In this document: positions 18,996 to 23,542 of the stretch, in pieces
Numbering within the stretch: the first letter of the stretch is position 1
How the letters are laid out: the number at the start of each line of letters is the position of its first letter
Assembly (NCBI GenBank): GCA_951812895.1
Contig: OX638333.1
Location: 424,366 to 488,365, forward strand
DNA: 64,000 nt
From: an uncultured Roseovarius sp.
GTDB lineage: Bacteria; Pseudomonadota; Alphaproteobacteria; Rhodobacterales; Rhodobacteraceae
Direction: 5' to 3'
Notes under the pieces: generated by a model
The model's database searches: none
Seen by the model: the letters and a program-made list of their open reading frames with translations, nothing else
Told to the model about the DNA's origin: nothing
Translations under genes and position numbers: made by a program

Positions 18996-19020
18996 AGGGA
19001 ATTATATACCAAAGTCACAT
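18996..19020 (+). repeat. Left terminal inverted repeat of the IS1595-type transposon
   Basis: Begins AGGGAATTATATACC and continues AAAGTCACAT. It is complementary to 23518-23542 with one mismatch. Confidence 0.8.
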
Positions 19021-19035
19021 ATCGATTGACAGTGC

Positions 19036-19122
19036 ATTCATAGTGCGGAATTGGTAGACGCAGCGGCCTTGTAAGCCGAAGTCCTAAGCGGGACGTGCCG
19101 GTTCGAATCCGGCTGCGGGTAC
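19036..19122 (+). tRNA. Class II tRNA-like sequence, UGU anticodon (possible pseudo-tRNA)
   Basis: The D-arm GCGGAATTGGTAGACGC is typical of tRNA-Leu. The anticodon loop CTTGTAA gives UGU (Thr). A long variable arm (GTCC...GGAC) and a perfect T-arm (GCCGG-TTCGAAT-CCGGC, 19097-19113) follow. The acceptor halves ATTCATA (19036-19042) and TGCGGGT (19114-19120) pair at 6 of 7 positions, but with three G-U pairs and one A-C mismatch. The 3' end reads ACGA rather than CCA. It sits just inside the left end of the transposon, ahead of the winged-helix gene. Confidence 0.4.
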
Positions 19123-19311
19123 GATGATCATTGTTTACCGAAGGGAAAGGAAATGGCTAATGCTCGGGAGCATTTAAAAATGCTGAATGATGAATTAGAG
19201 CGCGTTCGGAGGCAAATAGCAGAGTTGAAAATCGAGGAAGCGTTGCTTGCGAAAATGCTTCGTCGTATGGGAGACGACAGCGCGAAGAAGAAGCCCACAA
19301 ATCGTGCATTA

Positions 19312-20476
19312 TACCAAGCGCGAGAATTTCTGACTCTTTTAGGATTCCCAATCTGTGTTTGATCTGATTCAGTCTGGCAAAGGAGATTTGTCATGGGATC
19401 AGCAGTTCCACTTCGATGTGATTATACAGCGGTTGAGTTGCGTCGGTTGGCGCGTCGGTGCCGCGGCAATAGACAGATACGGCGGTTGCTTGCGCTGGCA
19501 GCGGTTTATGATGGGATGAACCGTACCGAAGCAGCGCGGGTTGGTGGGATGGATCGGCAGACGTTGCGCGACTGGGTTCATCAGTTCAATACATACGGAC
19601 CCGATGGTCTGACCAACGCCAAAGGGGCTGGTCGCCCTCGTTCGCTCAATGCCGAGCAAATGCTGATACTGGCTCAAATTGTCGAAACCGGGCCTAACCC
19701 ACACACGGATGGCGTGGTTCGCTGGCGGTGTATTGACCTGGTTCGGGTCATCGCCGAACGGTTTGGCGTTGAATGTTCTGAGCGATCCATGTCGGATTAT
19801 CTGGCCGAACTGGGCTTCTCCAATATCTCCGGTCGTCCCCGGCACCCCAAGCAGGATGCCCGTGTGATTGAGGCTTTCAAAAAAACTTCACCGATACGCT
19901 CGCAGCACACGTAGCCGACCTGCCTGAAGGAACACCTGTCGAAATATGGTTTCAGGATGAGGCAAGGATTGGCCAAAAGAACGGTCAGGTGCGCATCTGG
20001 GCGAAACAAGGAACCCGGCCACGCCTGCCTGCCGATCAGCGCTATGACAACACCTATCTGTTCGGGGCTATCTGCCCGAAACGTGGAACGGGTGCAGCCC
20101 TCGTTCTTCCCAAAGCTAACACTGAGGCGATGCAATTGCATCTCGACGAGATCAGCAAATATGTTGCTCACAAAGCTCACGCCGTTGTTCTGATGGATCG
20201 GGCCGGATGGCACAGCACCAGCAAGTTAATCCTGCCGAAGAACCTGACAATCATCCTGCTGCCGTCAAAATCACCCGAACTCAACCCGGTTGAGAACATC
20301 TGGCAATATCTGCGTTCAAACTATCTCTCAAACCGCATCTTCAACGATTACAACGCCATCGTCGAGGCAGCCTGCGACGCATGGAACGCGCCGATCGAAA
20401 AACCCAAGACAATCAAATCAATCGGAATGAGGGAATGGGCTCATCCTTGATCGGTCAGTATTTCTCGCGCTTAGTA
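19312..20476 (+). mobile_element. IS630-family insertion sequence
   Basis: The ends are imperfect inverted repeats. The left reads TACCAAGCGCGAGAATTTCTGAC; the right, read inward, begins TACTAAGCGCGAGAAATACTGAC. The element is flanked by TTA on both sides (19309-19311 and 20477-20479), consistent with the TA target duplication of IS630/Tc1 elements. It carries one transposase in two frames. Confidence 0.85.
19393..20450 (+). CDS. IS630-family transposase (two frames, -1 frameshift)
   Basis: The first frame (19393-19914) encodes the helix-turn-helix part (LRRLARRCRGNRQIRRLLAL, DRQTLRDWVHQFNTYGPDGL). It ends shortly after a run of seven A (19879-19885). A -1 shift there continues as NFTDTLAAHVADLPEG into the DDE domain: D in WFQDEARIG, D in VVLMDRAGWH, E in SPELNPVENIW. 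This is the usual programmed frameshift of the family. AGGAG precedes the ATG. Confidence 0.88.
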
Positions 20477-20730
20477 TTAGGCGTCAAATCGGCTGTCCTG
20501 AATTTTGCGTTCGAAGCCAGTGGAGATGGCGTTACGACCGAAGAAATGCGCGATGCGGTTGAGCGGGCGATCCCCGAAGTCGCAAAAGACACCGTGCGGT
20601 CAGTGCTCTCGCGATTGAAGAGCGACGGTGCTTTGGCTTTTGTAAGAGGGCGGTATTACGTGAAAGAGTTTGCGCCGCAGGAAGAAGACCGCCCTAATGT
20701 AACTCCCCTGCGTTCTGGTTAGTAACGGTC

Positions 20731-20759
20731 GGAGAGGCCGGGATTTTCCCGGCCTCTCC
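20731..20759. terminator. Strong hairpin between winged-helix gene and tRNA-like sequence
   Basis: A perfect 12-bp stem (GGAGAGGCCGGG / CCCGGCCTCTCC) with loop ATTTT, 8 bp after the winged-helix stop. No T-run follows, so it may terminate inefficiently or act as an RNA processing or stability structure. Confidence 0.6.
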
Positions 20760-20826
20760 CAAGCGGTTAGTCTGGCATCGGACTCCAAATCTGACATGCC
20801 GAGGGTTCGATTCCCTTCGTCCGCTC
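20760..20826 (+). other. Second tRNA-like sequence (CCA anticodon, Trp-like), no 5' acceptor half
   Basis: The D-arm-like AAGCGGTTAGTCTGGCA is followed by a 5-bp anticodon stem with loop CTCCAAA (CCA at 20785-20787). Then come a T-arm GAGGG-TTCGATT-CCCTT (20801-20817) and CGTCCGC as a 3' acceptor half. The matching 5' half is absent; the hairpin at 20731-20759 occupies its place. It looks like a truncated or reshaped tRNA. Confidence 0.4.
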
Positions 20827-20907
20827 CCTTTGGAAACGCAGATGCCTAAGCGGGACAGATCATTGCTTCCAACAAGCATGATGGCCTTGGAGACCCCTAA
20901 ACGCACG

Positions 20908-21069
20908 TCAATTCGGTTTTCTTGCGTCATCCCGAATCAACTTGACAGGCTTGAGAACAGAATCTGCGAGTTCGTCAGGCGTTGCATCGATTCTTACGTC
21001 TTCAAGCATTTCCTTCTTACCAGGTTGATAAGTATTTGGTCGCAGTCGGATTTCCGGTTTATCGGTCAT
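20908..21069 (-). CDS. 53-residue protein coupled to the methyltransferase-HNH gene
   Basis: Starts MTDKPEIRLRPNTYQPGKKE and ends VLKPVKLIRDD then six more residues. The ATG at 21069 overlaps the TGA of the methyltransferase gene (ATGA), so it is translated from the same transcript as transposase and methyltransferase. The sequence is hydrophilic and ordered-looking (RIDATPDELADSVLKP), which suggests a conserved accessory protein. Function unknown. Confidence 0.6.
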   Translation of the reverse strand: MTDKPEIRLRPNTYQPGKKEMLEDVRIDATPDELADSVLKPVKLIRDDARKPN

Positions 21070-22484
21070 TGCGTTGCTCTCCATTCGGCCATGGTGCGTC
21101 CACCCTTGCTTCGATTGCAGCCAGAGCAGAGCAGTTGCAGGTTATCGGGATGGTCCGTGCCGCCTTTTACACGCGGAAGAATGTGATCAACTTCCATGAC
21201 GCGGAACGGGAAGTGTGTTTTGCATCCGACGCAGACCCCTTCCTGTTCCCCGTAGAGCCTATGCCGATGGGTCCGGTAGTTGGGAAGTTCGCCAAGATCG
21301 GTGCGTTTCGGCGGCTCCGTCAAAGCCGTTGCACCGCCCCACAGACCGCGTTCCTCAGCAATTCGCTCATCCACCAGTTTGATGGCAAGCGGGGAGAGGT
21401 CAATCCCCGCCCATTGGCGCTGCAACCGGTCGGCGGCAACCAGCGTAGTTGCGCAACCGCAGAATGGATCGAGCACCAGATCGCCTTCGTCTGAACTGGC
21501 CTTGATGATCCGTTGCAGCAAAGCCAGCGGCTTCTGTGTGGGATAGCCCGTGCGTTCGCGGGCTTGAGAATTGACCGGCGGGATATCGACCCAAACATCG
21601 GGAGGCACCTGACCGGGGTTTGCTTCGAGATATCGCTTCAGGCGGGGCGTACCCTTTGATGTAAACAGGATCAGCCCCGCCTCGTGAAGCAAGTCCAGCC
21701 GCTTCAGAATACCGTCTTCCTTCAGATACCCGTGGATGAGACTACCATCAATCCAGCGGGCGTAATCACCGGTGCGCGGTACACTCCAGTGCCGCCCGAT
21801 ATCGGTTGGGTTCCAGCCCTGCCACGCGGTTCCGGCCTCGCCGTCGCTGACGCCAGGACCGGTGAGGTCGTCGCTGCTATATGCTCCTCTTTCGTCACTG
21901 TGGCGGTACTTTGAAGCGACATTCTGATCGCTGAGCGGTATCCGCACGGCGTTTCGGTGAATGTCCTGCCCGTAAAACAGAAGATGGTCCGCCGTTCGCC
22001 CGAAACGCCCACCATCGTTGTGATTGCCAATCCGTTTCCAGATCAGGTGATTACGAAACGCACTTTTGCTGAATAGCCCATCCATAAGCACACGCAGCCA
22101 ATGCGCAGCAGTATCGTCACAATGCAGATAAACGCTGCCAGTGGGCTTCAACACCCGCCGCATTTCCAGAAGCCGCACGGCCATGAAGATCAGGTAGGAT
22201 TGCATCGATTTGCCTTGGGCCTGACGCGCCGCCTCAATGACAGCGTAGGCTGCCGGGTTGCGGTCAGCCATCTCGCCGTGTTCGTACACATCAACGTCAT
22301 CCAGTGTCCATGTATCCTTGAACGCAGCGCCGGCCGCTTTTGAGCCTATCGGGGCCTCATAGGTACGGTTGGAGTTGAACGGCGGATCAAGGTAGATCAG
22401 GTCCACGCAGGCGTCGTTCATGCCGCGCAGGACGGCCAGATTGTCGCCGGTCCAGATTGTGCCGCTGGCGAAGTTCGCAGTCAT
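21066..22484 (-). CDS. DNA methyltransferase fused to an HNH nuclease domain
   Basis: A 472-residue protein. The N-terminal amino-methyltransferase (N4/N6, beta-type order) has the catalytic DPPF at 33-36 (IYLDPPFNSN) and the SAM-binding DPFCG at 339-343. Between them is the target-recognition region. The C-terminal 60 residues form an HNH module: CxxC from C418, VDHILPR with D433-H434, N448, then CSGCN (C453, C456, N457). The ATG overlaps the transposase stop (ATGA at 22481-22484). The family could modify and cut DNA with one polypeptide; whether the HNH part is active is unknown. Confidence 0.85.
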   Translation of the reverse strand: MTANFASGTIWTGDNLAVLRGMNDACVDLIYLDPPFNSNRTYEAPIGSKAAGAAFKDTWTLDDVDVYEHGEMADRNPAAYAVIEAARQAQGKSMQSYLIFMAVRLLEMRRVLKPTGSVYLHCDDTAAHWLRVLMDGLFSKSAFRNHLIWKRIGNHNDGGRFGRTADHLLFYGQDIHRNAVRIPLSDQNVASKYRHSDERGAYSSDDLTGPGVSDGEAGTAWQGWNPTDIGRHWSVPRTGDYARWIDGSLIHGYLKEDGILKRLDLLHEAGLILFTSKGTPRLKRYLEANPGQVPPDVWVDIPPVNSQARERTGYPTQKPLALLQRIIKASSDEGDLVLDPFCGCATTLVAADRLQRQWAGIDLSPLAIKLVDERIAEERGLWGGATALTEPPKRTDLGELPNYRTHRHRLYGEQEGVCVGCKTHFPFRVMEVDHILPRVKGGTDHPDNLQLLCSGCNRSKGGRTMAEWRATQ

Positions 22485-23458
22485 GTCGCTGGTTTCGCGC
22501 CGCTGGCTAATCCTGTATGCGCAATTAAGTCGCTATACCGAAGACGCTTGCCAACCATACCCGCAGCCATTCGGCCCATCTGGTCAGCGGTATCTTTGGA
22601 CCGGATGTTGTGACGCCCGGAGAATTCAATCACATAGCGGTCAAGGTGCTTTGGTGACATCTTGTGGTACACACCATCATGACCACGTTTCAGACCGGAC
22701 CAGAAACTTTCCATGCCGTTGGTGTGCGCCATGTCGCGGACATATTCGCCCACCGAATGCTTGACCGCCTCGTGCGGTCTGTCGATCCCTTTGTAGGCGC
22801 TGGCTTCGTCCGTGTAGACTTGTGCCCCTTCGGCGGTGTGATCGGTGACAAAGCCTTGAAGCGTTTCTGCGTCCGTCTTATGGACAACCTTGGCGACAAC
22901 ATGGTTAGTCTCGCGGTCTTTTGTTCCGGCCACAGCAGTTTTCCCTACAGCGCCACGACCCGCTTTTAGCTTCTTCTTGTTGTGCTTGTTCTTTTCCTTG
23001 CCGCCTATGTAGGTTTCATCGGCCTCAACAGGGCCGTTGAACAAAGGCTTTCCCGCCCTGTGCGCTTCTCTAAGGCGATGGGCCAAGTGCCAAGCGCTTT
23101 TCTGGGTGATCTCAAGGTCGCGATGCAGCTTCATGCTGGACACACCCTTGAGATTGGTTGTCACAAGGTAGATGGCGATTGCCCAAGTCTGATAGCCAAG
23201 TTTCGTCCCTTGCATCACATTGCCCGTTTTGAGGCTGAACATCGGGCGGTCAGGGCAATCACGGCAGCGATGGGTCATCGTCTTGTGCTTGATGTTTGAT
23301 TGCACTTCAAAAGACCCGCAATGGGGACAATAGGGGCCGTCCGGCCATATTTTGCCCGCAAACCACTTTTTGGCAGCTGCGTCATCTGGGAACATGCGAA
23401 GAAGTTGGATCAGGCTTATGCCTTCACGATCTGACTTGCCGGGTGCCTTATGCGCCAT
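22481..23458 (-). CDS. IS1595-family (ISXO2-like) transposase
   Basis: A 325-residue transposase with an N-terminal zinc ribbon (C44, C47, C65, C68; YCPHCGSF...CRDC). The catalytic domain has D148 (PVEADETYIGGKEKNKH), D217 (VYTDEAS) and the HTNGMESFWS motif (N247/E250). It lies inside the right terminal repeat of the element and heads a three-gene run with the methyltransferase and the 53-residue protein. A second copy of the TIR core (TGTGACTTTAATATA) is at 23473-23487, just upstream of the start, and may be a transposase or promoter site. Confidence 0.9.
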   Translation of the reverse strand: MAHKAPGKSDREGISLIQLLRMFPDDAAAKKWFAGKIWPDGPYCPHCGSFEVQSNIKHKTMTHRCRDCPDRPMFSLKTGNVMQGTKLGYQTWAIAIYLVTTNLKGVSSMKLHRDLEITQKSAWHLAHRLREAHRAGKPLFNGPVEADETYIGGKEKNKHNKKKLKAGRGAVGKTAVAGTKDRETNHVVAKVVHKTDAETLQGFVTDHTAEGAQVYTDEASAYKGIDRPHEAVKHSVGEYVRDMAHTNGMESFWSGLKRGHDGVYHKMSPKHLDRYVIEFSGRHNIRSKDTADQMGRMAAGMVGKRLRYSDLIAHTGLASGAKPAT

Positions 23459-23517
23459 ATCTTGCCCTCCGTTGTGACTTTAATATAAACCACCTTCGCA
23501 GTCAGGGCAAGCTTAAA

Positions 23518-23542
23518 ATGTGACTTTAGTATATAATTCCCT
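23518..23542 (-). repeat. Right terminal inverted repeat of the IS1595-type transposon
   Basis: The complement of the left repeat with one mismatch. The adjoining sequence TGTGACTTTAGTATA repeats an internal copy at 23473-23487. Confidence 0.8.

Follow-up and report, generated by a model that had tools for sequence, protein, structure and literature searches.

The 64,000-nucleotide stretch of contig OX638333.1 from an uncultured Roseovarius sp. that was analyzed here (the window) carries, at positions 18997 to 23541, a 4,545-bp transposon of the IS1595 family. Its minus strand encodes a transposase, a 472-residue methyltransferase-HNH fusion, and a 53-residue protein, in that order, with an ATGA overlap at both junctions. 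A first-pass annotation, made from the sequence alone, had proposed a passenger-bearing IS1595-type transposon with three chained minus-strand genes, and the domains, the ends, the target duplications, and both overlaps bear this out. The transposase scores above every cut-off (PF12762, 133.8 bits; the zinc ribbon PF12760, 34.6 bits; NF033547, 175.5 bits); the DDE_Tnp_IS1595 domain and zinc ribbon of the family are thus both present, as are its 8-bp target duplications. The element perhaps belongs to the ISPna2 group within this family. Its paired inverted repeats start with GG, are 24 bp long, and match at 23 of 24 positions; with all four bases equally frequent, chance would yield about 4e-6 such pairs in 5.6 kb. 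The annotation had recognized a real pair bounding a 4.5-kb unit but had made it 25 bp long (24/25): the additional base (18996/23542) lies outside the element, and the other three genomic copies differ there.

These copies were found in the host genome (4.54 Mb, one contig), which holds four full copies of the element, three identical and the fourth different by 1 base. The 8-bp target duplications that the annotation had suggested looking for are perfect at the minus-strand copy (L004) and permuted at the other three copies, where three duplications occur in the order AAAAATAA/TAATATTG, AAAACTAT/AAAAATAA, and TAATATTG/AAAACTAT. Four near-identical copies with 8-bp duplications indicate that the unit moved recently as a whole, together with its cargo and tail. 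Among the same-direction copies L001 (the window), L003, and L002, the permutation looks as if the ~573- and ~368-kb segments between them had swapped places; recombination between copies, or an assembly error swapping two segments, would give this pattern. Regarding an empty site, the left flank had no counterpart in 35 other genomes of the genus, except for two short matches in one. Plasmids gave two transposase matches at E-values up to 1e-50, with 42 to 48% identity.

The fusion combines, by profile matches, an N6_N4 methyltransferase and an HNH nuclease in one chain, as had been annotated. Its DPPF, DPFCGC, DH/N/N, and CxxC motifs are all present, so that methyltransferase and nuclease share one chain with their catalytic motifs, the domain arrangement of type IIC enzymes. 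Across 16 aligned fusions (14 in elements and two, from L106 and L107, outside transposons), DPPF is kept in 15, while DPFxGC, the HNH residues, and the zinc cysteines are kept in all 16. The middle of the gene, its probable target-recognition part, is exchanged between sister elements. Compared with the sister L089, blastn identity ends at element position 1434 and returns at 1985, and the two proteins are 90 to 100% identical outside this variable middle and 38 to 55% inside it (40-column windows). L092 and L093, which come from one genome, are 95 to 100% identical outside the recognition part and 5 to 65% inside. Fusion relatives (66 to 67%) also occur in chromosomes with no IS1595 transposase in the 12 kb covered (L106, 4931 to 6397; L107, 5520 to 6893).

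The transposase was found in 51 of 385 genomes of the class (own genome included), and the fusion, whole or in part, in 20 (E-values up to 1e-40); a species-wide genome collection added at least 79 further loci. We searched 97 transposase-bearing loci for inverted repeats and 8-bp duplications and delimited 58 elements, the other 39 being left uncounted because their ends were not found or not of the family type, or because they were duplicates (L112 and L121). The ends of L089, whose flanks are mismatched, were set by hand, and the 58 include L090 and L091 from one genome. The elements measure 1,503 to 7,441 bp (median, 2,935 bp), and 49 have perfect 8-bp duplications. Record titles place 43 of the 58 in six phyla, with 22 of those in Pseudomonadota. 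In a quick transposase tree the six phylum labels need 11 changes, which is not proof of transfer because the genomes are bins. Bin names suggest that many of the related elements come from marine sponges, and a passage in PMC8163846 describes restriction-modification genes as enriched in sponge symbionts, with lateral transfers among them.

None of the 58 elements is bare. Full-length or nearly full-length DNA methyltransferases are present in 25, with a nuclease alongside in 24 of these. Twenty-one of these enzymes are of the N6_N4 type (L089 to L094, L103, L115, L128 to L133, L135, L147, L148, L169, L175, L185, and the window's), two are C5 methyltransferases (L123 and L178), and two match N6_Mtase (L168 and L171). 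The nuclease is an HNH domain fused in 15 (14 Pfam scanned, L148 by profile only) and separate in L103, a fused Mrr-type domain in three (L135, L185, and, below the Pfam cut-off, L132), and a paired restriction enzyme of the BglII (L090 and L091), NgoFVII (L123), or HindVP (L178) type; L168 carries an HSDR_N-methylase with a specificity subunit, a type I-like arrangement, and no nuclease was recognized beside the L171 methyltransferase. The assignments of L091 and L148, and of the HNH ends in several others, come from a profile or from identity instead of a Pfam table of their own, and a weak match in L095 was left uncounted. In one seven-row clade of the transposase tree, with SH-like approximate likelihood ratio test (SH-aLRT) support of 98, all seven elements carry restriction-modification-type cargo of four kinds: C5 with NgoFVII, C5 with HindVP, an Mrr fusion, and HNH fusions.

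The annotation's idea that the element carries its own modification and nuclease module within the transposase message gains from both the ATGA chain and the canonical restriction-modification pairs that relatives hold in the same slot. Because the fusion occupies the slot of these pairs and its middle is swapped between sisters, it is most likely a putative single-chain, type IIC-like restriction-modification enzyme. The stop-start overlap could also mean that transposition is controlled by the methyltransferase through marks that it sets on the ends of the element, much as Dam regulates IS10 and Tn5 transposition through the marking of ends, and an open frame of at least 45 residues does begin at -4 to 0 from the transposase stop in 17 of the 58 elements. 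We consider such control improbable: the transposase-coupled gene varies among related elements (methyltransferases, a 133- to 147-residue protein, and others), the recognition part differs in sisters with like ends, and 33 of the 58 elements have no such methyltransferase.

Our preferred reading, to which we give a probability of about 0.68, is that of a recently active IS1595 transposon with a putative modification-and-cutting enzyme as cargo. The transposase would move everything between the inverted repeats, and the first cargo gene would be translated from the transposase message through the stop-start overlap. The product is a predicted N6/N4 (beta-order) methyltransferase whose target-recognition part can be exchanged and whose C terminus is an HNH nuclease. 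Freshly made, it would methylate its own sites in the host, and its HNH part would cut unmarked DNA, be it that of phages, of plasmids, or of the chromosomes of cells that had lost the element. Marking and cutting together may thereby give the element defence value, addiction value, or both.

For comparison, we delimited 34 distant IS1595 elements with transposases 34 to 51% identical. Fifteen were kept from 20 distant loci of the class set (1.96 to 4.3 kb; L235, L236, L237, L243, and L245 were dropped), and 19, two of them identical, were delimited from 80 loci of a viral-contig set (1.83 to 2.77 kb). We had expected these elements to be bare, which was wrong. Eight carry methyltransferases (L244, L270, L271, L283, L285, L295, L301, and L311, of which L283 and L285 are identical); a Pfam scan of 89 distant frames found N6_N4 in three and C5 in four, and L295 was assigned by profile. 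Matches to GmrSD-type, PIN, HEPN, PemK, and Mom families were also found. Methyltransferase cargo as a mark of the window element's own clade is weakened accordingly, and restriction, modification, and toxin-like cargo characterizes the wider group, beyond this one clade. Two distant elements, L230 and L234, hold a GmrSD restriction domain, together with an HNH domain in L230, and resemble type IV-like restriction cargo.

Several observations weigh against the preferred reading. The difference in methyltransferase cargo between related and distant elements (25/58 versus 8/34) is not significant (Fisher p = 0.07; both sets Pfam scanned), and the 33 related elements without such an enzyme make it frequent, not obligatory, cargo. 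L109, L110, L111, L164, L177, and L183 have fusion remnants only, those of L111, L177, and L183 consisting of the first and last parts of the methyltransferase-HNH gene. L147 has no DPPF motif, L132 has a frame change near its start, and the fusion genes of L133 and L175 oppose the direction of the transposase. Moreover, the methyltransferase part is ~40% identical to phage methyltransferases, and nicking or structure-specific cleavage is conceivable for the HNH part. The phage resemblance would fit a methyltransferase of the orphan kind whose HNH tail is vestigial or structural and which would guard the element against host restriction (anti-restriction) without restricting anything itself; so would the finding that the L089 homologue matches the PADLOC classes type II, type III, and orphan alike. 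This alternative we judge unlikely, given that the HNH catalytic residues and zinc cysteines are invariant across the aligned fusions and that in relatives this slot holds methyltransferases accompanied by true restriction enzymes.

The annotated 53-residue protein proved to be real; it is conserved among related elements and has no match up to an E-value of 0.1 in Pfam, NCBIfam, or PHROGs. A profile with an E-value limit of 0.01 found relatives in 43 of the 58 elements, and 31 of these reach 1e-10 or better; this profile was retrained twice on the same 58 elements, the 12 weaker matches are less sure, and a rerun gave 44. Thirty of the 31 strong matches point in the transposase direction, and 17 of these 30 stop no more than 102 bp short of the far end. 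No relative was found in the 34 distant elements, a comparison that favours the own clade on which the profile was trained (31/58 strong matches versus 0/34; Fisher 1e-8). Within 190 class genomes, own genome included, matches occurred at 22 places in seven genomes, and a transposase adjoins 16 of the 22; the other six showed none in the 2 to 3 kb covered (L208 at 2e-11; L210, L213, L214, L215, and L218 weaker). The protein model reached a predicted local distance difference test (pLDDT) score of 81 and a predicted template modeling (pTM) score of 0.41, with a best structural match at E 3.5. The protein belongs to the element core, where it most likely assists transposition or the cargo operon. 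It may serve end pairing or cargo exchange, and offers a new candidate for a factor that aids IS1595 transposition.

Between this gene and the left end lies a tail of varied features, whose coordinates are given in Table 1 with those of the rest of the element.

Table 1. Features of the IS1595-family element, in window positions.
Feature	Positions	Strand	Basis or remark
Left terminal inverted repeat	18997..19020	+	23/24 to right repeat; boundary fixed by four genomic copies
tRNA-like 1, degenerate tRNA-Leu, anticodon UGU	19036..19122	+	ARAGORN; Rfam 36 bits
Coiled-coil-like start of broken gene	19153..19311	+	Open frame; weak matches to coiled-coil families
IS630-family insertion, 1161 bp	19314..20474	+	TA on both sides; orfA 19393-19914, orfB to 20450 in a different frame
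Winged-helix end of broken gene	20477..20722	+	Predicted H-H-H-strand-strand
13-bp perfect hairpin	20731..20759	.	Possible terminator of the winged-helix gene
tRNA-like 2, 3' part like tRNA-Gly T-arm and acceptor	20762..20825	+	L089 identity ends inside, at ~20802
53-residue hallmark protein	20908..21069	-	ATGA start overlap; conserved in relatives
DNA methyltransferase-HNH fusion, 472 residues	21066..22484	-	PF01555 2.8e-38, PF01844 4.6e-12; start overlaps transposase stop
Variable middle of fusion gene, probable target-recognition part	21557..22108	-	Differs in sister L089
IS1595-family transposase, 325 residues	22481..23458	-	PF12762 6.6e-39, PF12760 1.8e-8, NF033547 1.3e-51
Right terminal inverted repeat, transposase side	23518..23541	-	Repeat match and four-copy boundary

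The strong hairpin seen by the first-pass annotation holds up on folding (z = -5.6 for 20726 to 20764), and the two tRNA-like sequences do resemble tRNAs but fall short of functional tRNA genes. The first scores above its Rfam cut-off of 29 bits, but minimum-energy folding (z = 0.1) does not give a cloverleaf; the second scores 26 bits, below its cut-off of 47. The first is 75 to 79% identical to six tRNA-Leu genes from other genomes. An origin of the two pieces by copying from the own genome was considered and rejected: beyond the element copies, that genome has only an 18-base match to the first, and the second has 28 bases (93%) in common with a tRNA-Gly gene. Both parts of the annotated coiled-coil/winged-helix gene exist, but the annotation had overlooked an IS630 insertion that breaks it in all four copies. 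This insertion has a DDE_3 transposase, inverted ends, and a TA duplication (HTH_33, 2.5e-20; DDE_3, 8.3e-22; NF033545, 93.9 and 112.7 bits, cut-off 100); because it was found solely inside the four copies, it probably entered before they spread. The single-sequence model of the winged-helix part reached a pLDDT of 73 (the other four models, 47.5 to 59.5), and its structural neighbours are largely winged-helix DNA-binding proteins with weak E-values (best, 0.014). Relatives of this part were absent from 142 class genomes beyond the four copies, and none was confirmed in viral contigs.

Alignment with sister elements places a joint within this region. Where the fusion gene ends, the window's element and L089 continue at ~87% identity across the small gene and the noncoding DNA that follows it, as far as ~20802, and beyond that point blastn aligned the last 23 bases only. 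L110 shares the L089 tail, L109 and L111 have another, and the T-arm and acceptor end is common to all. These different tails imply that the tRNA-Gly-like 3' end marks the joint where tails were joined. We read the tail, with its tRNA-like pieces, hairpin, winged-helix gene, and IS630, as a probable later accretion in which the tRNA-like pieces need no function. The annotation had said that relatives ending without the tRNA-like and winged-helix region would count against its unit; such relatives exist, yet all four copies in the own genome include the region, which does therefore move with the element. Its further suggestion, that the tRNA-like sequences yield decoy RNAs, did not stand, as L089 identity stops in the T-arm of the second, the first is degenerate, and the winged-helix gene is broken. 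More generally, a functional RNA or regulator cassette, such as a tRNA decoy against nucleases, would explain why the tail is kept in four of four copies and would have company in the tRNA genes inside L098 and L145. We regard it as highly improbable, with the winged-helix gene disrupted in each copy, no cloverleaf in tRNA-like 1, and L089, L109, L110, and L111 keeping just the T-arm end before diverging. The tRNA matches in question, found among six Rfam-scanned loci, score 37 to 62 bits (L098, 2947 to 3019 and 4245 to 4317; L145, 9106 to 9264) and indicate that the window's element is not alone among IS1595 elements in carrying tRNAs.

Other cargo of related elements includes an EamA transporter (L102), a metallopeptidase-like protein (L176), and a weak ParE-like match (L174). 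A module of a 250- to 313-residue protein and a PIN-domain protein occurs in L089 (6725 to 8165) and L110 (9394 to 10747) and, by eye, in the distant L233 and L244; the partner in L089 has no Pfam match, and the arrangement appears toxin-antitoxin-like. A 133- to 155-residue protein, for which the two members compared with Pfam gave no match, directly follows the transposase in L093, L094, L099, L101, L129, L147, and L175 and immediately precedes a methyltransferase-HNH gene in four of the seven. The own genome has a second, undelimited IS1595 transposase locus with six transposase copies. L104 (3197 to 4684) encodes an MT-A70 methyltransferase overlapping the transposase stop, together with a BglII-type enzyme and a small-protein match, and L105 is 99.97% identical to it over a 6.6-kb unit. 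By eye, a tRNA-like sequence and an integrase-like frame stand at the start of this repeated unit in L104.

Restriction-modification systems move between bacteria, and the vehicle is often unclear. Here, small transposons with hosts in six phyla, by record titles, carry seemingly complete systems adjoining the transposase gene; these, and the pair from one genome with a differing recognition part, make spread and specificity change testable. As a tentative proposal, to which we give somewhat less than even odds, IS1595-group transposons would be a major small vehicle of such systems. They would include an undescribed chassis lineage with the transposase at one end, a 50-residue accessory at the other, and a slot that exchanges at least six kinds of system, as well as recognition parts, across phyla. 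Among the papers listed in literature searches, judged by titles and abstract openings, we found none on restriction-modification cargo of IS1595 elements, and an earlier description is possible; what looks new, from the sequence comparisons, is transposase-adjacent restriction-modification cargo swapped across elements of several phyla, together with the clade's conserved far-end small protein.

Compared with known systems, the IS630 insertion has the HTH_33 and DDE_3 domains, flanking TA, and two frames of its family, and differs in being a secondary insertion inside an IS1595 element. Likeness to phage methyltransferases (PHROG 67; Streptomyces and Mycobacterium phages) is confined to the methyltransferase part: the 12 matches listed, of 25, cover fusion residues 10 to 380 at 39 to 41% identity and stop before the HNH part, and coverage of the query stays below 80% in all 25. 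Type IIC systems, according to a passage in PMC12707154, hold both activities in one polypeptide; these enzymes have in common with the fusion a methyltransferase, a swappable middle, and a nuclease domain in one chain, and the fusion, a putative enzyme, differs in its C-terminal HNH and in being transposase-coupled cargo of a small transposon. With its family the element shares the zinc-ribbon and DDE_Tnp_IS1595 transposase, the inverted repeats starting with GG, and the 8-bp duplications; passenger genes occur in some members of the family. IS1595 members are described with a single transposase gene in a passage of PMC8101967; to this plan the clade adds frequent restriction-modification cargo and, at the end away from the transposase, a small conserved protein that has no name.

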